NCBI RefSeq assembly: GCF_016734805.1
Contig: NZ_JAERQG010000001.1
Location: forward strand, 186,001 to 250,000
Source: Marivirga atlantica
GTDB lineage: Bacteria > Bacteroidota > Bacteroidia > Cytophagales > Cyclobacteriaceae
Length of the DNA stretch: 64,000 nucleotides
Direction: 5' to 3'
Part shown: positions 7,504 through 15,732 of the stretch, one piece after another
Layout: every line of letters starts with the position of its first letter
Position numbering within the stretch: position 1 is the stretch's first letter
Position numbers and translations under genes: made by a program
The notes under the pieces: generated by a model
Database searches by the model: none
Told to the model about the DNA's origin: nothing
Seen by the model: only the letters and a program-made list of their open reading frames with translations

Positions 7504-8682
7504 GTGGTTCGGCACCTTAGGAACTATATATTTCTAAAGGATATTTTCGTACTATCCGTTACTGCTTTTGGCGGAGCGCAAGCACACTTTGCTCTATTTC
7601 TGGATTACCTTGTAAAGAAAAGAGGATACTATACAGAACAGGAGTTAATTGAGATGAATGCGCTCTGCCAGCTTTTACCTGGTCCATCTTCTACACAAAT
7701 TCTATGTGGATTAGCTTACAAAAAAGGTGGTGCCCCTTTCGCCTTCCTAACACTTTTCATTTGGGCCATACCTGCTGTAGCTATCATGAGTCTTTTTGGA
7801 GTGATTATGTCTAATCTGGATGAAAAAGAACTTTCAACAGCCTTTACCAGATTCATTCAACCAATAGCTGTTGGCTTTGTGGGAGTCGCTGCCTATAAAA
7901 TCTGCGTTAAAGTAATTCATACTAAAACCAGCTTTATTATTCTGGTTTGTTCGGCTGTTTTATCGGTGTTTTTGAGTTCCCCGTATGCTTTTCCTGCTAT
8001 GATAGTAGCAGGAGGGTTAATCACATCATTTAAATACAAAGCACAGCCCATTGAAGAAAAGCAGAAAATGAAAATTAGATGGACTGCCTTAATTATTTGG
8101 ATAAGCGTGCTTATTCTCATTGCTGTTATTGGTACCATTACGCAATCCCTACCTATTCGGCTCTTAGAGAACTTCTACAGGAACGGAAGCTTAATCTTTG
8201 GTGGTGGGCAGGTATTAATTCCTTTTCTTTATACAGAGTTTGTAGATTTTAAAGACTATTTAAGCTCTTCAGAGTTTCTGAGTGGCTTTGCTATATCACA
8301 GGCCGTTCCAGGACCAACCTTCAGTTTTGCCTCTTACATAGGTTCACTTTCTATGCGTAGTTATGGTACGTGGGGCGAATTATTAGGCGGGTTTTTAGCT
8401 GCCGTAGGAATATTTGTCCCTGGCACATTGATGATATTTTTTCTGGTTCGTTTCTGGGATGAGTTAAAAAAGTATAGAGTGATTAAAGCCTCTTTAGAAG
8501 GTATAACAGCAGTGAGCTCAGGAATGGTGGTAGCCGCTGTCTATTTGCTTTTTGTACCAGTGGAAAATACTCTACTTAACTTTGCCTTACTTTTTGGAAC
8601 AGCAGCTATTTTATTATTTACTAAAATTCCAGCTCCGTATGTTGTATTGGCAGGCTTAGCCGCGGGCTTTTTATTGAGTTAA
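7504..8682 (+). CDS. chrA: Chromate transporter, two-domain CHR family
   Basis: A 392-residue polytopic membrane protein made of two homologous CHR halves. Each half has the typical sequence pair: FGGAQAHFALF with LLPGPSSTQ in the first, and FGGGQVLIPF with QAVPGPTFS in the second. Long-chain CHR proteins export chromate, and others in the family have unknown anion substrates. Translation must start at the GTG at 7504 directly after the preceding TAA; no in-frame ATG precedes the first domain. The 3' end overlaps the convergent ABC transporter gene by 12 bases. Confidence 0.9.
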   Translation: MVRHLRNYIFLKDIFVLSVTAFGGAQAHFALFLDYLVKKRGYYTEQELIEMNALCQLLPGPSSTQILCGLAYKKGGAPFAFLTLFIWAIPAVAIMSLFGVIMSNLDEKELSTAFTRFIQPIAVGFVGVAAYKICVKVIHTKTSFIILVCSAVLSVFLSSPYAFPAMIVAGGLITSFKYKAQPIEEKQKMKIRWTALIIWISVLILIAVIGTITQSLPIRLLENFYRNGSLIFGGGQVLIPFLYTEFVDFKDYLSSSEFLSGFAISQAVPGPTFSFASYIGSLSMRSYGTWGELLGGFLAAVGIFVPGTLMIFFLVRFWDELKKYRVIKASLEGITAVSSGMVVAAVYLLFVPVENTLLNFALLFGTAAILLFTKIPAPYVVLAGLAAGFLLS

Positions 8683-10854
8683 TCGCTTTCCAAAAACTGG
8701 TATATCTAATAATTCTTGAACACTTGAACTATAAAAATTACTACGATTAACCAATTGATCTGGCTCGCCCTCGTCCTCAATTTGACCATTTCTCAAAATA
8801 TAAATATAGTCGGACAATGACGCAACTTTCATCCTATGTGTTATTACGAAAATTGCTTTGTCTTTTTTAAGCTTATTCAATAAATTCAGAACAAAAGATT
8901 CTGTTGCCCTATCCATGGCAGATGTACCCTCATCAATGACTATAACATCAGGGTTTTTATAAAGTGCTCTTGCGAGGCTTACAAGCTGCTTTTGTCCTCC
9001 GGAAATATTCACTCCCTCTTCACCAAGTAAGGTCATATAGCCTTGAGGAAAACTGGAGAAAAATTTATCAAAACCAGTCTCTTTACACCATTTAATAACA
9101 TTTTCTAACTCCCTTTGATCTTCAGATAAGGCAATATTAAAAACCAGATAGCTATTAAATATTTTTATTTGTTGTGGCATTACAGCAATTCTTGATCTTA
9201 AACTGCTAACTTCAATTTTTTCTATTTGCTGATCATTAATTAAAATCTTCCCATTAGAGGGTGAATAAAATCTTTGCAGCAACTGAATAAAAGTACTTTT
9301 CCCTGAACCACTTTCGCCTAAAAGCGTTGTTATTCTACCCTTAGTAACATCCAATGAAACCTTTTTCAAAAGATCTAAAGAACCCGGATAATTAAATGAT
9401 ACTTCCTTACAAGTTATTTTAGAAATCTCATTTAATTTTATTCCTTCAGTTTGCTCTTCATCAATTCCGGAAAATTCTTCCATTCTATCAAAAGCTACTC
9501 TTGCCTCTTGAAACTGAATATTGAATAATGCAATTTTTGTAAGTGATGGGCCAATGGATCCAGATAAGGACAATAATGCCATTAAGGAGCCTAATAATAA
9601 ATCATCCTGAAACACGAAATAGGACGCAACAGATATCACAGCAACTACAACTGTTATGTTGAGCAGCTCAGTAAGTAGTTGAAACTTAACTTGAATCTTA
9701 CCCAGTCTAAATGAGCTTTCTTGAAAGGCCTTATATAGAAAAGTAGTTGACTTATGAAACAAATTTATAGTATTAGTCCCTTTTACTTCAGTAATGCCAT
9801 TAATCACATCTATGTAGTTACTTTCGTTTAGGGAATAAGCACTCATTAATTCCTTTTGCCTTTCGATAATTGGATTATTTAAGCGATACAATACGATTGC
9901 ATAAACGGGAATGAAAACAGCAACGATCAATCCGACTTGCCACGAATAGACAAAAACACCAATTAAAGAAATAATAATTACCAAAAACTCAATTAGCAAA
10001 CTCCCAATCAAACTGCTTACCGTTGTTTGAATCCTTCTTGTGTCATTCATTCTGGCTACCATATCCCCTGTTTTCTTAGAATCAAAGAAAACCTTTGGTA
10101 TTCTTAATAATGAACCAAAAAAAGATCCGATCATTCTGTTATTGAAATCGCGGCTTTGGGTAATTAAAAAAGTGGATCTCAAATAATTAAGCCCCATTTT
10201 TATTAAAAGTATTAAAGCAAATAGCGTTAGGCCTATTATAAGCTTATCCAATTCTCTCGAAGGTAAAATCACATCAATTAGCTTTTGACTAAAAATAGCT
10301 GTAGCCAAAGAAAAAACTGCGATGATGAGTCCAAGAAATAATGAAGCAATAAGAATGTTAAAATCTTCCTTTACCCATTCAATAATTTTATGATACCTAC
10401 CTTTAGACCCTTTTGTATCTTGCTTAAAATCATTATTTGGATTTAAGCTAAGCAAGGCCTTAGATTGCCAAACCTTATTTAGTTTCTCCTTATCCCATAA
10501 TTCAACACCTTTGCCAGGATCATTAATAACTATCTTATCACCTTGAAAGCCATAAAAAATAACATAATGTTGTAGTCTATTTTCAAGTATAACATGTAAA
10601 ATTGCTGGATGCTCTAATTCTTTTAAATTATCAATACCCTCAGCCTCTAGACCTTCAACATCAAATCCTAAAGCTTGTGCTCCCTGATATAGGCCGAGCA
10701 ATTTAGTGCCTGTCTGAGTCGTACCAGTAGTCCTTCTTAACTCATCGAGATTCGGACTTCCTCCATGATATTTAATTATAGTCGCTAAACATGCCGGACC
10801 ACAATCAGATTGACCATGCTGCTTTACAAAATACTTTTTCAGGCTTTTGTCCAT
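8671..10854 (-). CDS. Peptidase-containing ABC transporter (C39 peptidase, bacteriocin-type exporter)
   Basis: A 727-residue PCAT half-transporter that would cleave leader peptides and export the cores. The N-terminal C39 cysteine protease (about 1-140) keeps Gln12, catalytic Cys18 in SDCGPACLATI, His96 (LQHYVIF) and Asp112 (NDPGKG), the same numbering as in ComA-type enzymes. Six membrane segments span about 165-440. The ATPase domain has Walker A GESGSGKS, signature ISGGQKQ, Walker B VIVIDEG and the H-loop ITHRM. It is the last gene of a minus-strand run that begins with two leader-peptide genes. No HlyD-type adaptor or TolC-like protein is encoded in the window, which a Gram-negative exporter would normally need. 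Confidence 0.95.
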   Translation of the reverse strand: MDKSLKKYFVKQHGQSDCGPACLATIIKYHGGSPNLDELRRTTGTTQTGTKLLGLYQGAQALGFDVEGLEAEGIDNLKELEHPAILHVILENRLQHYVIFYGFQGDKIVINDPGKGVELWDKEKLNKVWQSKALLSLNPNNDFKQDTKGSKGRYHKIIEWVKEDFNILIASLFLGLIIAVFSLATAIFSQKLIDVILPSRELDKLIIGLTLFALILLIKMGLNYLRSTFLITQSRDFNNRMIGSFFGSLLRIPKVFFDSKKTGDMVARMNDTRRIQTTVSSLIGSLLIEFLVIIISLIGVFVYSWQVGLIVAVFIPVYAIVLYRLNNPIIERQKELMSAYSLNESNYIDVINGITEVKGTNTINLFHKSTTFLYKAFQESSFRLGKIQVKFQLLTELLNITVVVAVISVASYFVFQDDLLLGSLMALLSLSGSIGPSLTKIALFNIQFQEARVAFDRMEEFSGIDEEQTEGIKLNEISKITCKEVSFNYPGSLDLLKKVSLDVTKGRITTLLGESGSGKSTFIQLLQRFYSPSNGKILINDQQIEKIEVSSLRSRIAVMPQQIKIFNSYLVFNIALSEDQRELENVIKWCKETGFDKFFSSFPQGYMTLLGEEGVNISGGQKQLVSLARALYKNPDVIVIDEGTSAMDRATESFVLNLLNKLKKDKAIFVITHRMKVASLSDYIYILRNGQIEDEGEPDQLVNRSNFYSSSVQELLDIPVFGKRLTQ

Positions 10855-10926
10855 GTTAAATACTTAAGATAATTAGGGCTTTAATTAGAAAGATACTTTC
10901 TATGTATTTTTTAGGAGAGTTGGTTT

Positions 10927-11406
10927 TTATTCTAAAACTTTAAGTATAGCTTCTATTTTCACCTCTCCTTTAAAATGCTTCTTCAGACTGTTGTCATCGT
11001 AAATAAAAACTTGAGGAACACCACCCATAATATGAGTTGTTAACCTATTTTCATCTACAGATAAATAAAAAGCTTGTAGTCCATATTCCTTTAAGAAGTT
11101 TTTTGCTTTTATTTCAGGTTCAAAAGACATAAACCCTAATTGATATTGTTTAAATTTAGAAAGATTTTTTGAAATTTCTTTCACTTCATACTGACAGAAA
11201 TGACACTCACTATTAAAATAAATAAGAACAGCCGGCTTTTGGCTATCCAAAGTTTCTATTCCTAGCTTTTCACCTATTAAGCTCAAAGTTTGTTGTGTGT
11301 CCTGTACTTTTTCTTTTTGTTGAAGCTTTGTAATACTTTTATAAGCAAACCAAACACATAAAAGCACTAATGCTAATGCGACTGAACCAACTATTTTTTT
11401 CTTCAT
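10927..11406 (-). CDS. Membrane-anchored thioredoxin-like protein (CxxC)
   Basis: A 159-residue protein with an N-terminal membrane anchor (about residues 5-24) and a periplasmic thioredoxin fold. The active site is ECHFCQYEV (CHFC) and the cis-Pro loop is GGVPQVFIY. It resembles TlpA/redoxin-type thiol-disulfide proteins. Its ATG shares one base with the stop of the upstream membrane-protein gene (ATGA junction), so translation is probably coupled. Because it lies between genes for two-cysteine precursor peptides and their exporter, a role in forming or correcting the peptides' disulfides is a reasonable inference. A reductant role is equally possible. Confidence 0.85.
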   Translation of the reverse strand: MKKKIVGSVALALVLLCVWFAYKSITKLQQKEKVQDTQQTLSLIGEKLGIETLDSQKPAVLIYFNSECHFCQYEVKEISKNLSKFKQYQLGFMSFEPEIKAKNFLKEYGLQAFYLSVDENRLTTHIMGGVPQVFIYDDNSLKKHFKGEVKIEAILKVLE

Positions 11407-12062
11407 CAGCTGCCCAAGTTAATAGATAGAAAGGTGATAAACAGCAACCAAACAACTAAAGAAGAACCATAAACAGGTAAAGTAAATTCAAGTGTTTTAT
11501 TAAAGTCCTTTTTCATAATTTTCATTATGCCTACTGAAAGCGCTATTATATAAGCGAGCTCAAAGATATTTAGAGATTTTAGCGGATAAACTAACCAGCT
11601 ATCCAAACTTTCAGGGTTCTCAAAAAGACTAAGAAGTGATAAGGGAGCAAAATATTGTATATCCGAATAGGAATAACCGGTATCTATAAAACCATACCAA
11701 ATAATTAGTAGCAAAGAGGGTATTAACCAAACAAACTCAGCCATTAATACAACTTTGAAAAAACCTTTAAATGAGGCCTTAAAATCGAAAATAATAGCAC
11801 CACATAGTAACCAAAGGGTTAATAAAACACATTTAAAAAAATAGAAAATAGGTAGCAGAGTATAATTTAACCATGACCATTTCTCCTTAGCCTGAATTAA
11901 CTTATATATTCTTTCATAGCTCATTTGATTCTGTAAATAATCAACTAATACAGATTCGGTAACTATGTTTGAATGTATGAAAGCATTAAATAGAATTGCA
12001 ATTAAACAAAGTAAAAGAAAAACTAAGAAATTAGAATTGCTTAATATCGGTACCTTAACCAT
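11406..12062 (-). CDS. Polytopic membrane protein of the peptide-export locus
   Basis: A 218-residue integral membrane protein with about five or six hydrophobic segments (near residues 12-32, 66-88, 96-118, 160-178 and 195-215) and no recognised motif. An in-frame TTG lies one codon upstream (12065), but the ATG at 12062 is preferred. It sits 11 bases after a 42-residue membrane peptide gene and overlaps the thioredoxin-like gene by one base, so it belongs to the peptide operon. The layout resembles Yip1-like or immunity-type membrane proteins, but homology could not be tested. Candidate roles are immunity or an accessory part of export. Confidence 0.75.
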   Translation of the reverse strand: MVKVPILSNSNFLVFLLLCLIAILFNAFIHSNIVTESVLVDYLQNQMSYERIYKLIQAKEKWSWLNYTLLPIFYFFKCVLLTLWLLCGAIIFDFKASFKGFFKVVLMAEFVWLIPSLLLIIWYGFIDTGYSYSDIQYFAPLSLLSLFENPESLDSWLVYPLKSLNIFELAYIIALSVGIMKIMKKDFNKTLEFTLPVYGSSLVVWLLFITFLSINLGS

Positions 12063-12073
12063 CAAGTTTTATA

Positions 12074-12202
12074 TTATTTAAATAAAGAAATATCAGAGCC
12101 AGTTATTTCAGAATATAGAAAAGATGCTAAAAATACAAGCAAAATTACCTTTATTAAAACCATAAGTATTTTATAAAATTTAGAGCGTTTTTTAAATTTC
12201 AT
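12074..12202 (-). CDS. Small single-pass membrane protein, 42 residues
   Basis: A short open frame with ATG at 12202 and TAA at 12074. The N-terminus is strongly basic (MKFKKRSKFYK), followed by one hydrophobic helix (about residues 12-31) and a short polar tail ending SLFK. This is a typical positive-inside single-span protein. It lies between the attenuator-like hairpin that follows the two precursor peptide genes and the polytopic membrane protein, 11 bases upstream of the latter. The gene is too small for homology-based naming. Position and topology would suit a small immunity protein or a subunit of the export machinery; a non-coding open frame cannot be excluded. Confidence 0.5.
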   Translation of the reverse strand: MKFKKRSKFYKILMVLIKVILLVFLASFLYSEITGSDISLFK

Positions 12203-12254
12203 AACAACTGAAATCTGTTGAAAAGCATTACGAAATTATTTTGTCATAAAACAA

Positions 12255-12292
12255 AATTTCAGAAACCAAACAACAGCTCAATTTCTGAAATT
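12255..12292 (-). terminator. Attenuator-like terminator after the precursor peptide genes
   Basis: Read on the minus strand, AATTTCAGAAA and TTTCTGAAATT form a perfect 11-bp stem with a 16-nt loop, followed by TTGTTTTATG. It lies 22 bases past the stop of the second precursor gene and upstream of the rest of the operon. A second pair, AACAGCT (12304-12310) and AGCTGTT (12272-12278) as read on the minus strand, would compete with it. Partial termination here would give much precursor mRNA and less transporter mRNA, as is common in bacteriocin operons. Confidence 0.5.
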
Positions 12293-12314
12293 CCATTTAA
12301 ATAAGCTGTTCTGA

Positions 12315-12485
12315 CTATACTAATCGATAAACAGCGTATATAGCACACCCGCCACCCAAAACAAGGCCAACAGGGGCTACAAAAGCTCCCCACAGAGCAA
12401 CTCCTGCGCAAAAGCCATCACCAAAATCGGTAGCCTCAGAACCACCAACAATTTGTTCTAGTTGAATTACATTAATCTCTTTCAT
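12315..12485 (-). CDS. Double-glycine-leader precursor peptide (peptide B)
   Basis: A 56-residue peptide found by direct translation, ATG at 12485 and TAG at 12315. The leader MKEINVIQLEQIVGG (15 residues) has the hydrophobic spacing and terminal Gly-Gly that C39 peptidases recognise. Cleavage would release a 41-residue core that is mostly small and hydrophobic, with Cys at residues 26 and 47 (core 11 and 32), a GGGC stretch and GxxxG-type spacing. It is 12 bases after peptide A. A disulfide-bonded, membrane-active bacteriocin-like peptide is the best guess; a signalling peptide is possible. No lanthipeptide, cyclase or radical-SAM gene is nearby. Confidence 0.8.
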   Translation of the reverse strand: MKEINVIQLEQIVGGSEATDFGDGFCAGVALWGAFVAPVGLVLGGGCAIYAVYRLV

Positions 12486-12497
12486 TTTTCAAAATTT

Positions 12498-12671
12498 TTA
12501 CTGTGCTGAATCTCCAGATAAACATAATGCCATGAATGCTGCTGCACCCCATATTACTCCTACTCCGCTTACTGCACTTGCGGCAAATAACCCTACTCCC
12601 AAACCACACGATGTAGCATCAGACCATGAGGCCTCAAGTATGGACATTTCTTTTAATTCTAATTTTTTCAT
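12498..12671 (-). CDS. Leader-type precursor peptide (peptide A)
   Basis: A 57-residue peptide with ATG at 12671 and TAA at 12498. The first 15 residues (MKKLELKEMSILEAS) look like a bacteriocin leader but end Ala-Ser instead of Gly-Gly, so processing at this point is less certain. The core would be 42 residues with Cys22 and Cys50 (core 7 and 35), and a Gly/Ala-rich helix between them containing GLGVG and GVIWG (GxxxG motifs), followed by a polar tail SGDSAQ. GxxxG helices are a mark of class IIb two-peptide bacteriocins, and this gene is 12 bases before peptide B. First gene of the transport operon as far as seen. Confidence 0.75.
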   Translation of the reverse strand: MKKLELKEMSILEASWSDATSCGLGVGLFAASAVSGVGVIWGAAAFMALCLSGDSAQ

Positions 12672-12852
12672 GAATTTAAAATTTAGTTAAACAAATTATT
12701 TCTTACAAAGAAGATAAAAACAAATTACCCTAGCTATTCATATTCTGAATATCTATCTTCTATAATTGAATACGTAATTCAAAAGCATAAAAGACTGTAT
12801 TTAAAGGTTCTAATCCTTTTTAATTACACTCGATTATTATATACTTGTAAAT

Positions 12853-12889
12853 TATTCTAAGTTAAATGATATACTCATAAATTAGAATA
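12853..12889. promoter_or_regulatory. Inverted repeat in the divergent regulatory region
   Basis: TATTCTAA (12853-12860) and TTAGAATA (12882-12889) are perfect inverted half-sites separated by 21 bases, ending 40 bases before the XRE-type regulator gene. The 258-bp region between this gene and peptide A is very AT-rich and also contains ATATTCTGAATAT near 12739-12751. These are candidate operators for the divergent promoters; AT-richness makes chance palindromes common. Confidence 0.35.
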
Positions 12890-12929
12890 GACAAATAATC
12901 ACTAACCAGAACCCTACAAAACTTACATC

Positions 12930-13304
12930 ATGATAAGTAAAAGATTACGTGTTTTAAGATTAAAAAATAATTTGAGTCAGGAGGAGCTAGCATATGAGCT
13001 TTGCATTTCACAACCTACTTATGCAAGGCTAGAAAATGGTAGTGGCAATTGGGCAAAATATCTTACTGAAATTTGTAAATTCTTCAATGTAACTCCCAAC
13101 GATCTTTTAGATGAAAACCACGCTGGTATTGAGAATTCAAAAGAAGTTATGTTTGATTCAATTATTGAAAAGTGTAAAGAAAGTTATGAGCACAGGATAG
13201 CCGAACAAACTGAAACTATTAAAACTTTAAAAAAACAAATTGAATTTTTAGAAAAAAATAACTCTGAACTCATATCACTTTTAAGAACTAGATTAATAGC
13301 CTAG
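12930..13304 (+). CDS. XRE-family helix-turn-helix regulator
   Basis: A 124-residue DNA-binding protein. Residues 4-60 are a Cro/C1-type HTH (ISKRLRVLRLKNNLSQEELA ... ISQPTYARLENG), and residues about 78-118 form a C-terminal coiled coil (EQTETIKTLKKQIEFLEKNN) that would dimerise it. It is transcribed away from the peptide operon, with 258 bp between, which makes it the natural candidate for its regulator. Related short HTH-coiled-coil proteins are frequent next to T9SS and bacteriocin-like genes in Bacteroidota. Its last base abuts the convergent lipocalin-like gene. Confidence 0.85.
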   Translation: MISKRLRVLRLKNNLSQEELAYELCISQPTYARLENGSGNWAKYLTEICKFFNVTPNDLLDENHAGIENSKEVMFDSIIEKCKESYEHRIAEQTETIKTLKKQIEFLEKNNSELISLLRTRLIA

Positions 13305-13721
13305 TTATTTTATGAAAACAATTTTTGAAGTACCGCTTTTACCGCTTATAATTGGTACTATGACTAAAGAATCATTGGAACAGTAGTTTATAATGGCTTT
13401 TCTGTCAAATGATCTATCAATTTCTTTAATTTTCAACGTATCATCATTAATAGAATAGAGTGCTCTTCTTGTCACTAATTGTCCATTTGATAAATCAGAG
13501 TATGTAAGTGTATCAGATTTAAATTCATAGAAGGCACTTTCAAGCATAAGTTTGAATTGTTCTTCTAATTTTAGTTGATCTGAAATATCGGCATTATTAT
13601 ATGCAGATGACATTCTTATTCTTTCAATTGCATCATAAGATACAATATGCCACTTCCCTTGAATATCGTCATTCAGTGTAAAAGCAGTAGAAATAAACAG
13701 TATAGACAAAAATAACCTCAT
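13305..13721 (-). CDS. Lipocalin-like periplasmic protein
   Basis: A 138-residue protein with a short signal peptide (MRLFLSILFISTAFT) and a start to the mature part reading IQGKWHIVSYD, the GxW pattern at the first strand of lipocalin-like domains. Alternating beta strands follow (YEFKSDTLTYSD, LYSINDDTLKI, DSLVIVPIISG). It lies 43 bases downstream of the third precursor peptide on the same strand, with a strong hairpin between, and ends directly against the XRE gene. A ligand-binding or self-protection role for the peptide is possible but unproven. Many Bacteroidota lipocalin-like proteins have no known job. Confidence 0.7.
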   Translation of the reverse strand: MRLFLSILFISTAFTLNDDIQGKWHIVSYDAIERIRMSSAYNNADISDQLKLEEQFKLMLESAFYEFKSDTLTYSDLSNGQLVTRRALYSINDDTLKIKEIDRSFDRKAIINYCSNDSLVIVPIISGKSGTSKIVFIK

Positions 13722-13732
13722 ATATTATATAA

Positions 13733-13757
13733 AGGCATCTATTATTGATAGATGCCT
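13733..13757 (-). terminator. Hairpin between peptide C and the lipocalin-like gene
   Basis: A perfect 10-bp stem (AGGCATCTAT / ATAGATGCCT, 5-nt loop) begins 8 bases after the stop of peptide C. On the minus strand it is followed by TTTATATAAT, a weak T-tract. As with the hairpin after peptides A and B, it could let most transcripts end after the peptide gene. Confidence 0.5.
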
Positions 13758-13764
13758 ATTCATT

Positions 13765-13926
13765 TTATAGTCTTCCAGCGCAATTTGCACCGAATACTTC
13801 CCAACCCCAAAGAATATCACCTTGGTAGCCTCCACCTGTTAAGATTGTCCATAATGTACCGCAATATTCAGCACGTGTAACACCACCTTTAATGGTATTC
13901 ATTTGATTTACATGTAAATTTTTCAT
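13765..13926 (-). CDS. Double-glycine-leader precursor peptide (peptide C)
   Basis: A 53-residue peptide with ATG at 13926 and TAA at 13765, found by direct translation. The leader MKNLHVNQMNTIKGG is 15 residues long and ends in Gly-Gly, matching the lengths of the leaders of peptides A and B. The 38-residue core starts VTRAEYCG, is rich in Trp and Gly (GGGYQGDILWGW) and ends CAGRL, with Cys22 and Cys49 (core 7 and 34). It has its own upstream winged-helix gene but no second transporter, so the C39 exporter at 8671 probably handles it. Bacteriocin-like or signal peptide. Confidence 0.75.
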   Translation of the reverse strand: MKNLHVNQMNTIKGGVTRAEYCGTLWTILTGGGYQGDILWGWEVFGANCAGRL

Positions 13927-13991
13927 GACTTGTAATTTATTTGGTTAAACATGTCGGTAATTTAGCTCAACTCTCGGAAAAATTTTTTCCG

Positions 13992-14192
13992 TTAGTTCTT
14001 TAGAAGATATTTTTTTTCCTTCCTAGAATACCGAATATTATAACCCTCATTTCTAAGCTCATTAATCATATTTCTTATAGTTCTTTCAGAGCAATTAAAT
14101 TGAGAAGTCATTTGATATGGAGAATGTAAAGACCCCTTTTTAATTTTTTCTAAGAGATAATTAATTCGTTTTACATAAGCTAAACTATTCAT
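13992..14192 (-). CDS. Small winged-helix DNA-binding protein
   Basis: A 66-residue protein that is almost entirely one DeoR/HTH_11-like winged-helix domain: the helix-turn-helix reads MTSQFNCSERTIRNMINELR, followed by EGYNIRYSRKEKKYLL as the wing. It has no effector domain. The gene is 65 bases upstream of peptide C on the same strand and is probably its regulator. Proteins of this size and type are common as single-domain regulators in Bacteroidota. The ATG at 14192 is used because no upstream in-frame start adds a sensible extension. Confidence 0.75.
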   Translation of the reverse strand: MNSLAYVKRINYLLEKIKKGSLHSPYQMTSQFNCSERTIRNMINELRNEGYNIRYSRKEKKYLLKN

Positions 14193-14276
14193 TTATTATA
14201 AGGATTTGGTTTAGCCACCAAAATCTCTATTATTCAATTAAAAATGAATTATTTACAATTATAATTTTAGAACATT

Positions 14277-15149
14277 TTATTCTAAAATTGAATTTACATT
14301 ATACCCATGAACAAAAGGCATATTTCTATCTCCATGCCCGGCTGGAAAATCAAAAACGATGGGATAGTCATATGATCCACAATGATAATTAATAATATCC
14401 TTCACATCTTGTCCATAAACTTCCATAGATTCTTTCATCCCTACAAATTCACCAACTAGCAAAGCTTTGAGTTGGTCAAGCTTTCCACTTCGCTTAAGCT
14501 GTAGGAACATTCTATCGATATGGTAAAGGTATTCTCCCACCTCTTCTACAAATAATATTTTGCCTTCAAAGTCTATCTCCGATGAAGTGCCAATTTGATT
14601 CACAATCATCGATAAATTACCACCGATTATCTCAGTTGACAATTTTTGAAATTTTTGATACTGCTCATTAATTAATGATGAGTATTCCTTTCCTTTTAGA
14701 AGATCAATTAAAGCGTTCACATCTTGAGCTGAATGAAGATGAAGGTTTTGCAAGACCGGTCCGTGTATACTACAATAACCTTGTTTGTAAATAGCATGAT
14801 GAAGAACGGTGATATCACTATACCCAATTACCCATTTAGGGTTATTCTTAAAAGCACTCCAGTCAATAGAATCAATAATGTGAGTAACTCCAAAACCGCC
14901 TCTTCCACAGAATACTGCGCTTGCATTAGGATGATCTAAAGCCCATTGAAGATCTTGCAAACGTTCCTCATGAGTAGCCGCAAACTTAAAATAATCACTT
15001 AAAGCATACTTTCCCACTTCTACTTGAAAACCTTTAGATTCAAGAAATTTACATCCTTGTAGAAACTTTTCCACATTAACCTTTCCAGAAGGATTAATGG
15101 CTAAAATTAAATCATGTTGTTTGAGCGGTTTTGGAGAAATCTTGGGCAT
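14277..15149 (-). CDS. LD-carboxypeptidase, peptidase family S66 (LdcA/MccF-like)
   Basis: A 290-residue S66 serine peptidase. Recognisable are GRGGFGVTHIID, the nucleophile region GYSDIT, GGNLSMIVNQIGT, the acidic FVEEVGEYLYHIDRM and the His loop FPAGHGDRN. Classical LdcA trims the terminal D-Ala from murein tetrapeptides in the cytoplasm. MccF, from the same family, cleaves microcin C and gives immunity. An open frame extends 31 codons further upstream to 15242, but that part overlaps the previous gene and a terminator, so the ATG at 15149 is chosen. It lies upstream of the peptide C unit on the same strand, 84 bases before the winged-helix gene. Confidence 0.85.
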   Translation of the reverse strand: MPKISPKPLKQHDLILAINPSGKVNVEKFLQGCKFLESKGFQVEVGKYALSDYFKFAATHEERLQDLQWALDHPNASAVFCGRGGFGVTHIIDSIDWSAFKNNPKWVIGYSDITVLHHAIYKQGYCSIHGPVLQNLHLHSAQDVNALIDLLKGKEYSSLINEQYQKFQKLSTEIIGGNLSMIVNQIGTSSEIDFEGKILFVEEVGEYLYHIDRMFLQLKRSGKLDQLKALLVGEFVGMKESMEVYGQDVKDIINYHCGSYDYPIVFDFPAGHGDRNMPFVHGYNVNSILE

Positions 15150-15155
15150 AAAAAA

Positions 15156-15176
15156 AGTCCTGAGGTTATCAGGACT
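15156..15176 (-). terminator. Terminator of the bamA-skp operon
   Basis: Perfect 8-bp stem AGTCCTGA / TCAGGACT with a 5-nt loop, followed on the minus strand by seven T and then immediately by the ATG of the LD-carboxypeptidase gene. It lies 31 bases beyond the second skp stop codon. Confidence 0.85.
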
Positions 15177-15207
15177 AATGTAGTATTTATTATTGGATAT
15201 CGTAAGC

Positions 15208-15732
15208 TTATTCGGCATCATCAACTGGTGGCTCAACACCAAGCTTTCTTAATACCATATCAGAGATGTTTCCATTGTCTTCGTCAGCTATATATAACAT
15301 AGCTTCAGCTCTTACTATATGCGTAAATCCATTCTCTTCAGCCACTTTGTCAATAGCATTCTGTATTTTCTCATATAATGGCTCATACAGCTCTTGTTGC
15401 TTTCTCATAATTGATTGCTCAGCATCTTGCTGGAACTTTTGAAGTGACTGCTGCTCAGCTTGTAACTCCATTTCTTTATCAGTTCTAACCTGATCAGTCA
15501 TAGTTGGAGCATTTTGCTGGTACTCAGCTACTTTTTGTTGGAAAGTTTGTACTTTCTGCTGAATAGTATTTGAGAATTGCTTTTCATAAGCCTGAATTTG
15601 TGATTGAACCTCCTTAGATTCAGGCATTAAGCTTAAAACATAGTCAGCATTGGTATATCCAATTTTAACATTTTGTGCGTTTAGGTTTATTGCTAAACCT
15701 AAAGCTAACATGATGATTAAAATCCTTTTCAT
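15208..15732 (-). CDS. OmpH/Skp-family periplasmic chaperone
   Basis: A 174-residue protein with a signal peptide ending LNAQ and a mature part starting VKIGYTNADYVLSLMPESK. It is then almost all coiled coil (about residues 42-125, Gln/Glu-rich), as in Skp, whose trimer holds unfolded outer-membrane proteins with long helical tentacles. It ends with a small beta strand region (FTHIVRAEAMLYIADE) before a variable tail. Second of two skp paralogues directly downstream of bamA, 13 bases after the first; the operon ends here at a strong terminator. Confidence 0.9.
   Translation of the reverse strand: MKRILIIMLALGLAINLNAQNVKIGYTNADYVLSLMPESKEVQSQIQAYEKQFSNTIQQKVQTFQQKVAEYQQNAPTMTDQVRTDKEMELQAEQQSLQKFQQDAEQSIMRKQQELYEPLYEKIQNAIDKVAEENGFTHIVRAEAMLYIADEDNGNISDMVLRKLGVEPPVDDAE

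Follow-up and report, generated by a model that had tools for sequence, protein, structure and literature searches.

A low-GC island of Marivirga atlantica as a probable two-peptide bacteriocin locus with an exporter set of the bacteroidetocin kind

The stretch of DNA analysed here, from the marine bacterium Marivirga atlantica (64,000 nucleotides, positions 186,001 to 250,000 of contig NZ_JAERQG010000001.1, hereafter "the window") carries, at positions 8671 to 14276, an island of small precursor peptides and export genes that we think is probably an accessory bacteriocin locus, with the adjacent peptides A and B as a disulfide-closed two-peptide bacteriocin and a third peptide, C, as a separate one provided with a lipocalin-like immunity partner. 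An earlier note, made from the letters alone, had already proposed a bacteriocin-like peptide-secretion operon with two two-cysteine precursors, a C39 exporter and a redox partner. Our sequence analysis supports this proposal, and the A/B pair is better placed in a class that spans the phylum. The six minus-strand genes of the operon have the coordinates and the order that the note gave (A, B, a 42-residue membrane peptide, a polytopic membrane protein MEM, the thioredoxin-like TRX and the peptidase-containing exporter PCAT), and the one-base overlap was found, between MEM and TRX (TGATG). What had been overlooked is a second module upstream, made of a helix-turn-helix (HTH) gene, peptide C, a lipocalin-like gene and a divergent XRE gene, together with the insertion context of the whole. 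The note had also placed the smallest genes below most gene-calling cut-offs; sizes of 129-174 bp are not under the cut-off of every gene caller.

The features are, with the basis of each assignment in brackets:

8671-14276, no strand assigned: the whole accessory island, between chrA (7504-8682) and an LD-carboxypeptidase gene (14277-15242)
8671-10854, minus: PCAT, a C39 peptidase-ABC exporter of 727 residues (Pfam domains and aligned catalytic residues)
10927-11406, minus: TRX, a membrane-anchored thioredoxin-like oxidoreductase with CHFC (Pfam matches below the cut-off, and CxxC)
11406-12065, minus: MEM, a polytopic accessory membrane protein (TTG start listed; the ATG at 12062 is likelier)
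12074-12202, minus: 42-residue peptide with a single transmembrane segment, candidate immunity gene for A and B (position behind the pair)
12315-12485, minus: peptide B precursor, 56 residues, with a 15-residue Gly-Gly (GG) leader and Cys11 and Cys32 in the core (left-out leader score and B-type alignment)
12498-12671, minus: peptide A precursor, 57 residues, with a 15-residue leader ending Ala-Ser and Cys7 and Cys35 in the core (leader score)
12930-13304, plus: XRE-type regulator, divergent from the A-B operon (HTH_3, 6e-10)
13305-13721, minus: lipocalin-like protein with a signal-peptide-like start, judged by eye, candidate immunity gene for C (Lipocalin_4, 0.0016, below the cut-off)
13765-13926, minus: peptide C precursor with a GG leader and Cys7 and Cys34 in the core (left-out leader score and C family)
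13992-14192, minus: 66-residue HTH_11-type regulator upstream of peptide C (HTH_11, 1.4e-6)

Leaders, cysteines and pairs

The comparison covers 121 loci: the window, 40 loci reached through C39 matches and 80 reached through MEM, the latter being the best of 218 confirmed places. A simple pattern picked out 105 unique GG leaders across these loci, and a 15-position leader matrix was derived from them. A score of at least 6 was reached at 181 of the 8979 ATG starts of the real sequence, that is in 181 distinct open reading frames (ORFs) spread over 107 of the 121 loci, a count that is partly circular because the matrix was built from these same loci; in the reversed sequence a single ATG ORF start of 6692 reached 6, and none reached 8. 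The fair tests are those of the window's own peptides, where B and C, each left out of the seed, score 26.2 and 23.9, and A, which was never in the seed, scores 15.0. The 15-residue leaders that the earlier note ascribed to A and B stand, with scores that beat the reversed control, and the one correction is that the leader of A ends Ala-Ser, where most others end Gly-Gly. Single changes at one of the two end sites occur in other leaders, such as Gly-Ser and Ala-Gly.

Conservation of leader and two-cysteine pattern in relatives, on which the earlier note had staked its proposal, was looked at and found: 147 of the 167 unique cores behind a matched leader have exactly two cysteines, separated by a median of 33 residues. 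Once eight repeated or near-identical loci were dropped, 99 peptide-bearing loci were left, and 36 of these hold 37 tandem pairs, a pair being defined only by a gap of less than 250 bases. In the window the gap from A to B is 12 bases, and such adjacent leader-bearing precursor genes are those of two-peptide bacteriocins of class IIb. The second peptide of pairs often has GFC close to its start and GC close to its end. Locus L111, from an Ekhidna metagenome-assembled genome, has relatives of A (40%) and of B (48%) arranged as in the window, and behind them lies a 31-residue ORF with a single transmembrane segment and a GTG start; in the A-type alignment, relatives of A come from L111 and L163.

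The cores have a weak similarity to class II bacteriocins: Bacteriocin_IIc is matched by 4 of the 14 peptides of A type (best 4e-5) and by 7 of the 18 of B type (best 0.0013), and PF17508, the microcin V type, by 4 of the 14 A-type peptides (best 0.0038). They are also rich in GxxxG, counted 152 times against a shuffle mean of 109 (none of 1000 shuffles reached 152) and present in both cores of 24 of the 37 pairs against 18.5 when shuffled (P 0.02). Both A and B have two GxxxG in the core, which is a weak test, as the family-wide count of motifs in both peptides equals that of shuffles.

The exporter set and the bacteroidetocins

The MEM-TRX-PCAT set recurs across Bacteroidota. In the window PCAT matches Peptidase_C39 (5e-32), ABC_membrane (2e-31) and ABC_tran (5e-29) far above the cut-off, and its catalytic Cys18, His96 and Asp112 are intact, as the earlier note had read them: in an alignment of 20 C39 domains, the window's included, the first two are invariant and Asp112 is conserved in at least 90%. 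The genome itself gives a single match to the C39-domain query, and other ABC matches to the PCAT query begin at residue 154 or beyond. In TRX the CHFC follows a hydrophobic N-terminus; its matches to Thioredoxin_2 (1e-4) and AhpC-TSA (2e-5) are both below the cut-off, and CxxC is present in 25 of 25 TRX sequences among the matches listed. The window's MEM has no match in Pfam or NCBIfam, and members of its alignment match weakly to YknW_fam (5 of 33, best 5e-5), Yip1 (3 of 33, best 0.0022) and other families; YknW is an accessory of an ABC exporter. MEM, TRX and PCAT follow each other in this order on one strand in 75 of the 80 named loci selected by MEM, the other five holding MEM and TRX (three), MEM and PCAT (one) or MEM alone (one). 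MEM also occurs in 12 of 295 genomes of the order of a Paludibacter metagenome-assembled genome (locus L182), presumably Bacteroidales, where 11 loci from 11 genomes all have matches to MEM, TRX and PCAT, and ten have leader peptides.

MEM is not a perfect marker of the cassette, and we rejected it as such, because the family has a common non-cassette paralogue. Among 29 family MEM loci re-read with 1.5-kb flanks, 13 hold MEM, TRX and PCAT, one MEM and TRX, and 15 MEM alone (a few on short contigs; all of L028-L038 belong here), so that the family figure of 133 of 196 for MEM mixes in this paralogue. In L028, L032, L034 and L036 the paralogue stands beside other large ORFs, with no TRX or PCAT within 1.5 kb, and the MEM family may serve another role besides the export cassette. 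A search of plasmids with MEM gave two weak Flammeovirga matches.

The earlier note had presented the exporter set as new. This is not supported, as it matches the gene set of the bacteroidetocins, toxins of gut Bacteroides, in the available portions of PMC6671954, MEM and the transmembrane protein of that set being matched by description only. There, Coyne et al. (2019) report that a transmembrane protein, a thiol oxidoreductase, a C39 exporter and a peptide with a 15-residue leader sufficed for toxin production in E. coli (PMC6671954). Since the same kind of gene set makes a toxin, we count this for the bacteriocin reading of the island. It also follows that some of the leader-matched peptides counted here may be on the wider published list of 19, whose members have at least two cysteines and come from four Bacteroidetes classes (PMC6671954). 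According to the same portions of that paper, the transmembrane protein and the oxidoreductase are both needed for full activity, neither is protective, and the producers inhibit themselves. The earlier note had taken the polytopic membrane protein to be the immunity protein; by analogy with the bacteroidetocin protein, which gave no protection, and with MEM constant beside the exporter despite changes of cargo, we rejected this role for MEM as unlikely.

Like the bacteroidetocins (class IIf), as these are described in the portions available, the window has a C39 exporter, a transmembrane protein, a thiol oxidoreductase, leaders of 15 residues (theirs have 15-16) and two cysteines. Of the combination used to recognise them (a leader of 15-16 residues, GG, at least two cysteines), B and C have every element, and A has the leader and the two cysteines with its Ala-Ser ending. 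The differences are that bacteroidetocins A and B have four cysteines, whereas A, B and C of the window have two each (the wider list asks only two), and that their peptides are encoded between the transmembrane protein and the oxidoreductase, whereas those of the window precede MEM. A single bacteroidetocin kills and no immunity gene was found for it, whereas the window has paired peptides and candidate immunity genes. The term two-peptide is absent from the main text of PMC6671954. C39 exporters also accompany clusters for ribosomally synthesised and post-translationally modified peptides in Bacteroidales, with an HTH gene in one, in the available part of PMC10352776.

We would picture the working of the island as follows. 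The 15-residue leaders would bring A, B and C to the C39 domain of PCAT, which would cut after residue 15 and pump the cores into the periplasm, with MEM aiding the assembly or working of the exporter; TRX would close or correct the single disulfide tying both ends of each hydrophobic core. A and B would jointly form pores in related Bacteroidota, with the 42-residue peptide shielding the producer, and C would act as a separate bacteriocin against which the lipocalin-like protein shields. The XRE and small HTH proteins would govern the two modules.

Immunity partners and the case for a pair

The 42-residue membrane peptide is, from its position, the likely immunity gene and a better candidate than MEM. 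In 24 of the 37 pairs, the window included, the second peptide is followed within 160 bases by the start of a tiny hydrophobic ORF (24 rather than the counted 25, because the ORF in L167 is itself a GG peptide). By the same rule such an ORF lies behind 20 of the 89 peptides that stand singly, 46 of the 868 long ORFs and 292 of the 4840 positions drawn at random. Elsewhere, the space before MEM may hold ABC exporter genes or a larger protein (judged by eye; L070, L074, L116, L177, L069). For peptide C, 5 of the 7 non-redundant loci with a C-type peptide, the window among them, have a lipocalin-like gene behind it. In L103 there are three C-type genes, with a lipocalin-like gene behind each; for two of these the assignment comes from reading the ORF that follows rather than from tblastn. 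A different protein of 420-434 residues follows the C-type peptide in L079 and L273, and L083 has a lipocalin-like homologue with no C-type match. We think that the two-cysteine C-type peptide and the lipocalin-like protein (13305-13926 in the window; L085, L096, L103, L174) form a recurring couple, probably of toxin and immunity.

Class IIb offers a close model for A and B in three respects: adjacent leader-bearing precursors, GxxxG-rich cores and a small membrane protein gene behind. In that class, the small membrane protein behind the pair is the immunity protein. The window differs in belonging to a Gram-negative phylum, in having two cysteines per peptide and an oxidoreductase of its own, and in a Pfam score below the cut-off. 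Class II microcins of the microcin V type combine a GG leader, a C39 ABC exporter, a disulfide and a small membrane immunity protein; the window shares the leader and the exporter, and would share the disulfide and the small membrane immunity protein if these are correctly predicted. It differs from this type in having MEM and TRX instead of a membrane-fusion protein, and in its pairs of peptides. No description of two-peptide or class IIb bacteriocins of Bacteroidota was found among the matches listed from the open-licence literature (titles and abstract openings), and none of a bacteriocin of Marivirga in the open-licence literature.

Another idea is that A and B each act on their own, as bacteroidetocin-like single-peptide bacteriocins co-transcribed by chance and using a common exporter. 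It would agree with the two-cysteine peptides that stand singly beside the cassette (89 singles), with the three separate C-type peptides of L103, each with its own lipocalin-like gene, and with the killing by one synthetic bacteroidetocin alone (PMC6671954, in the portions available). We nevertheless consider it unlikely, because neighbouring pairs of precursors followed by a single small membrane ORF recur in distant genera, and because 21 of the 37 second peptides, against 8 of the 37 first ones, show a loose G(x)(x)C near the start of the core.

Several observations nevertheless weigh against a two-peptide bacteriocin, among them the 89 peptides that stand alone. Cleavage of A is less certain, because its leader ends Ala-Ser. 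Pairs of other kinds exist, with a second peptide that lacks cysteine (L139, L150) or with four cysteines in both (L077), and 13 of the 37 pairs have no small membrane ORF by the rule above, among them L111 with its GTG start. The window's 42-residue peptide, with one transmembrane segment, is shorter than most of its counterparts (50-69 residues). Peptide B scores 14.9 bits against a cut-off of 27.1 for Bacteriocin_IIc (PF10439), and A has no match. The cores of the three peptides carry a slight negative charge (-2, -2 and -1 for A, B and C), and typical bacteriocins are cationic. GxxxG, AxxxA or SxxxS in both peptides is used as a criterion for two-component bacteriocins in the available part of PMC13289728; these motifs occur in both members of 30 of the 37 pairs against 29.4 when shuffled (P 0.48), no better than chance. 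Finally, no membrane-fusion or outer-membrane part appears among the ten island-region proteins scanned with Pfam.

The locus links an export set of known kind to diverse paired cargo, probably disulfide-closed, with plausible immunity partners. To our knowledge, few small bacteriocins have been described in non-gut Bacteroidota, and the locus offers a simple search rule (MEM-TRX-PCAT plus leader) and dozens of test pairs, many of them in cultured marine or soil genera.

Insertion site, cargo turnover and regulators

The island is a low-GC insertion between chrA and the LD-carboxypeptidase gene: its GC content is 0.313, that of the remaining window 0.360-0.370. The junction was compared in nine other genomes of the genus. 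It is empty in five (G148, G191, G170, G485, G116), chrA being 66-330 bases away between alignment ends; another gene lies between chrA and the LD-carboxypeptidase gene in G484 and G487; and G055 and G486 have there a HlyD-like protein, so judged by eye, and a different PCAT (30% identity), with chrA beyond the stretch fetched. This junction beside bamA (window 8671-14276; L263-L271) looks like a hot spot for differing peptide export loci in the genus. BamA is the target of bacteroidetocins, according to the available part of PMC8546649. We did not adopt the proximity of bamA as meaningful, because the LD-carboxypeptidase gene adjoins skp and bamA in all nine genomes, island or not.

Judged from sequence identity, the cargo turns over while the exporter set remains. 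Genomes G148 and G116 have a PCAT 70-71% identical to that of the window and unrelated peptides, and at E 1 none of the nine other genus genomes gives a match to peptide B. Across the class, at E 0.01, the B profile picks out 7 of 295 genomes, of which two gave profile rows (the window's own and G065), three are leader-only matches and two are further genomes (G158, G247). Such turnover, together with the sporadic hot-spot distribution and the immunity-like partners, argues against the idea that the peptides do other work, for example as parts of the envelope or surface, for which the exporter would merely be a route. This idea draws on the unexplained crossing of the outer membrane, and we hold it to be very improbable.

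The regulators raise a different question. Homologues of the XRE gene were found at 13 other non-redundant loci, where all but one, 12 in number, are encoded on the other strand ahead of the first peptide listed, and the HTH profile that finds the 66-residue protein of the window also finds genes beside GG peptides in relatives. It gives 38 HTH ORFs, distributed over 33 of the 121 loci; 21 of these ORFs have a GG peptide within 400 bases downstream. With regulator genes adjoining the peptides in this way, and pheromones being likewise processed by C39 exporters (ComA), the peptides might be cell-to-cell signals rather than killers. We find this quite improbable: the island proteins scanned with Pfam include no receptor kinase, the cores are long, hydrophobic and wholly different between close relatives, and the small membrane and lipocalin-like partners resemble immunity proteins.

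In relatives, some HTH proteins carry a leader-like stretch behind the HTH domain (score at least 0), as do 14 of the 38 HTH ORFs against 30 of 2282 other ORFs, five of which score above 19. A search of the phylum with an HTH protein gave 23 places in 22 of 296 genomes, 14 of them with a C39 match within up to 7 kb on either side, and 58 unique HTH proteins when joined to the locus set. Among those of at least 85 residues, 15 of 37 end in a leader-like GG or AG stretch that is itself followed by 8-34 residues. Such an ending was seen in 27 of the 867 other ORFs, and shuffling gave 0.7 on average and 5 at most; the phylum sample leans towards tails because the query was itself tailed. Covariation of the tails with local precursor leaders reached P 0.054 in 15 loci. 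The window's own HTH protein has no leader-like tail. The tailed proteins are possible export-coupled regulators or HTH-pheromone fusions, of which no description was found among the matches listed from the open-licence literature; if they are real, this would be a new way of coupling gene expression to peptide export.

Taking both lines together, we put forward, tentatively and as a conjunction that we consider rather doubtful, that Bacteroidota may hold a large unrecognised class of one-disulfide two-peptide bacteriocins, exported by the bacteroidetocin set, guarded by tiny membrane proteins and including the window's pair, and that in relatives, not in the window, the exporter peptidase may bind or cleave its own GG-tailed HTH regulator, tying expression to export.

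Two minor observations may be added. Tailed HTH ORFs with a short hydrophobic end were seen in L129, L125, L179, L120, L162, L072, L113, L126, L106, L214, L217, L224, L226 and L234, and L106 also has, at 9780-10562 on the plus strand of the locus as fetched, five short GG peptides in a row next to a further PCAT cluster, three of the five peptides being rich in proline.

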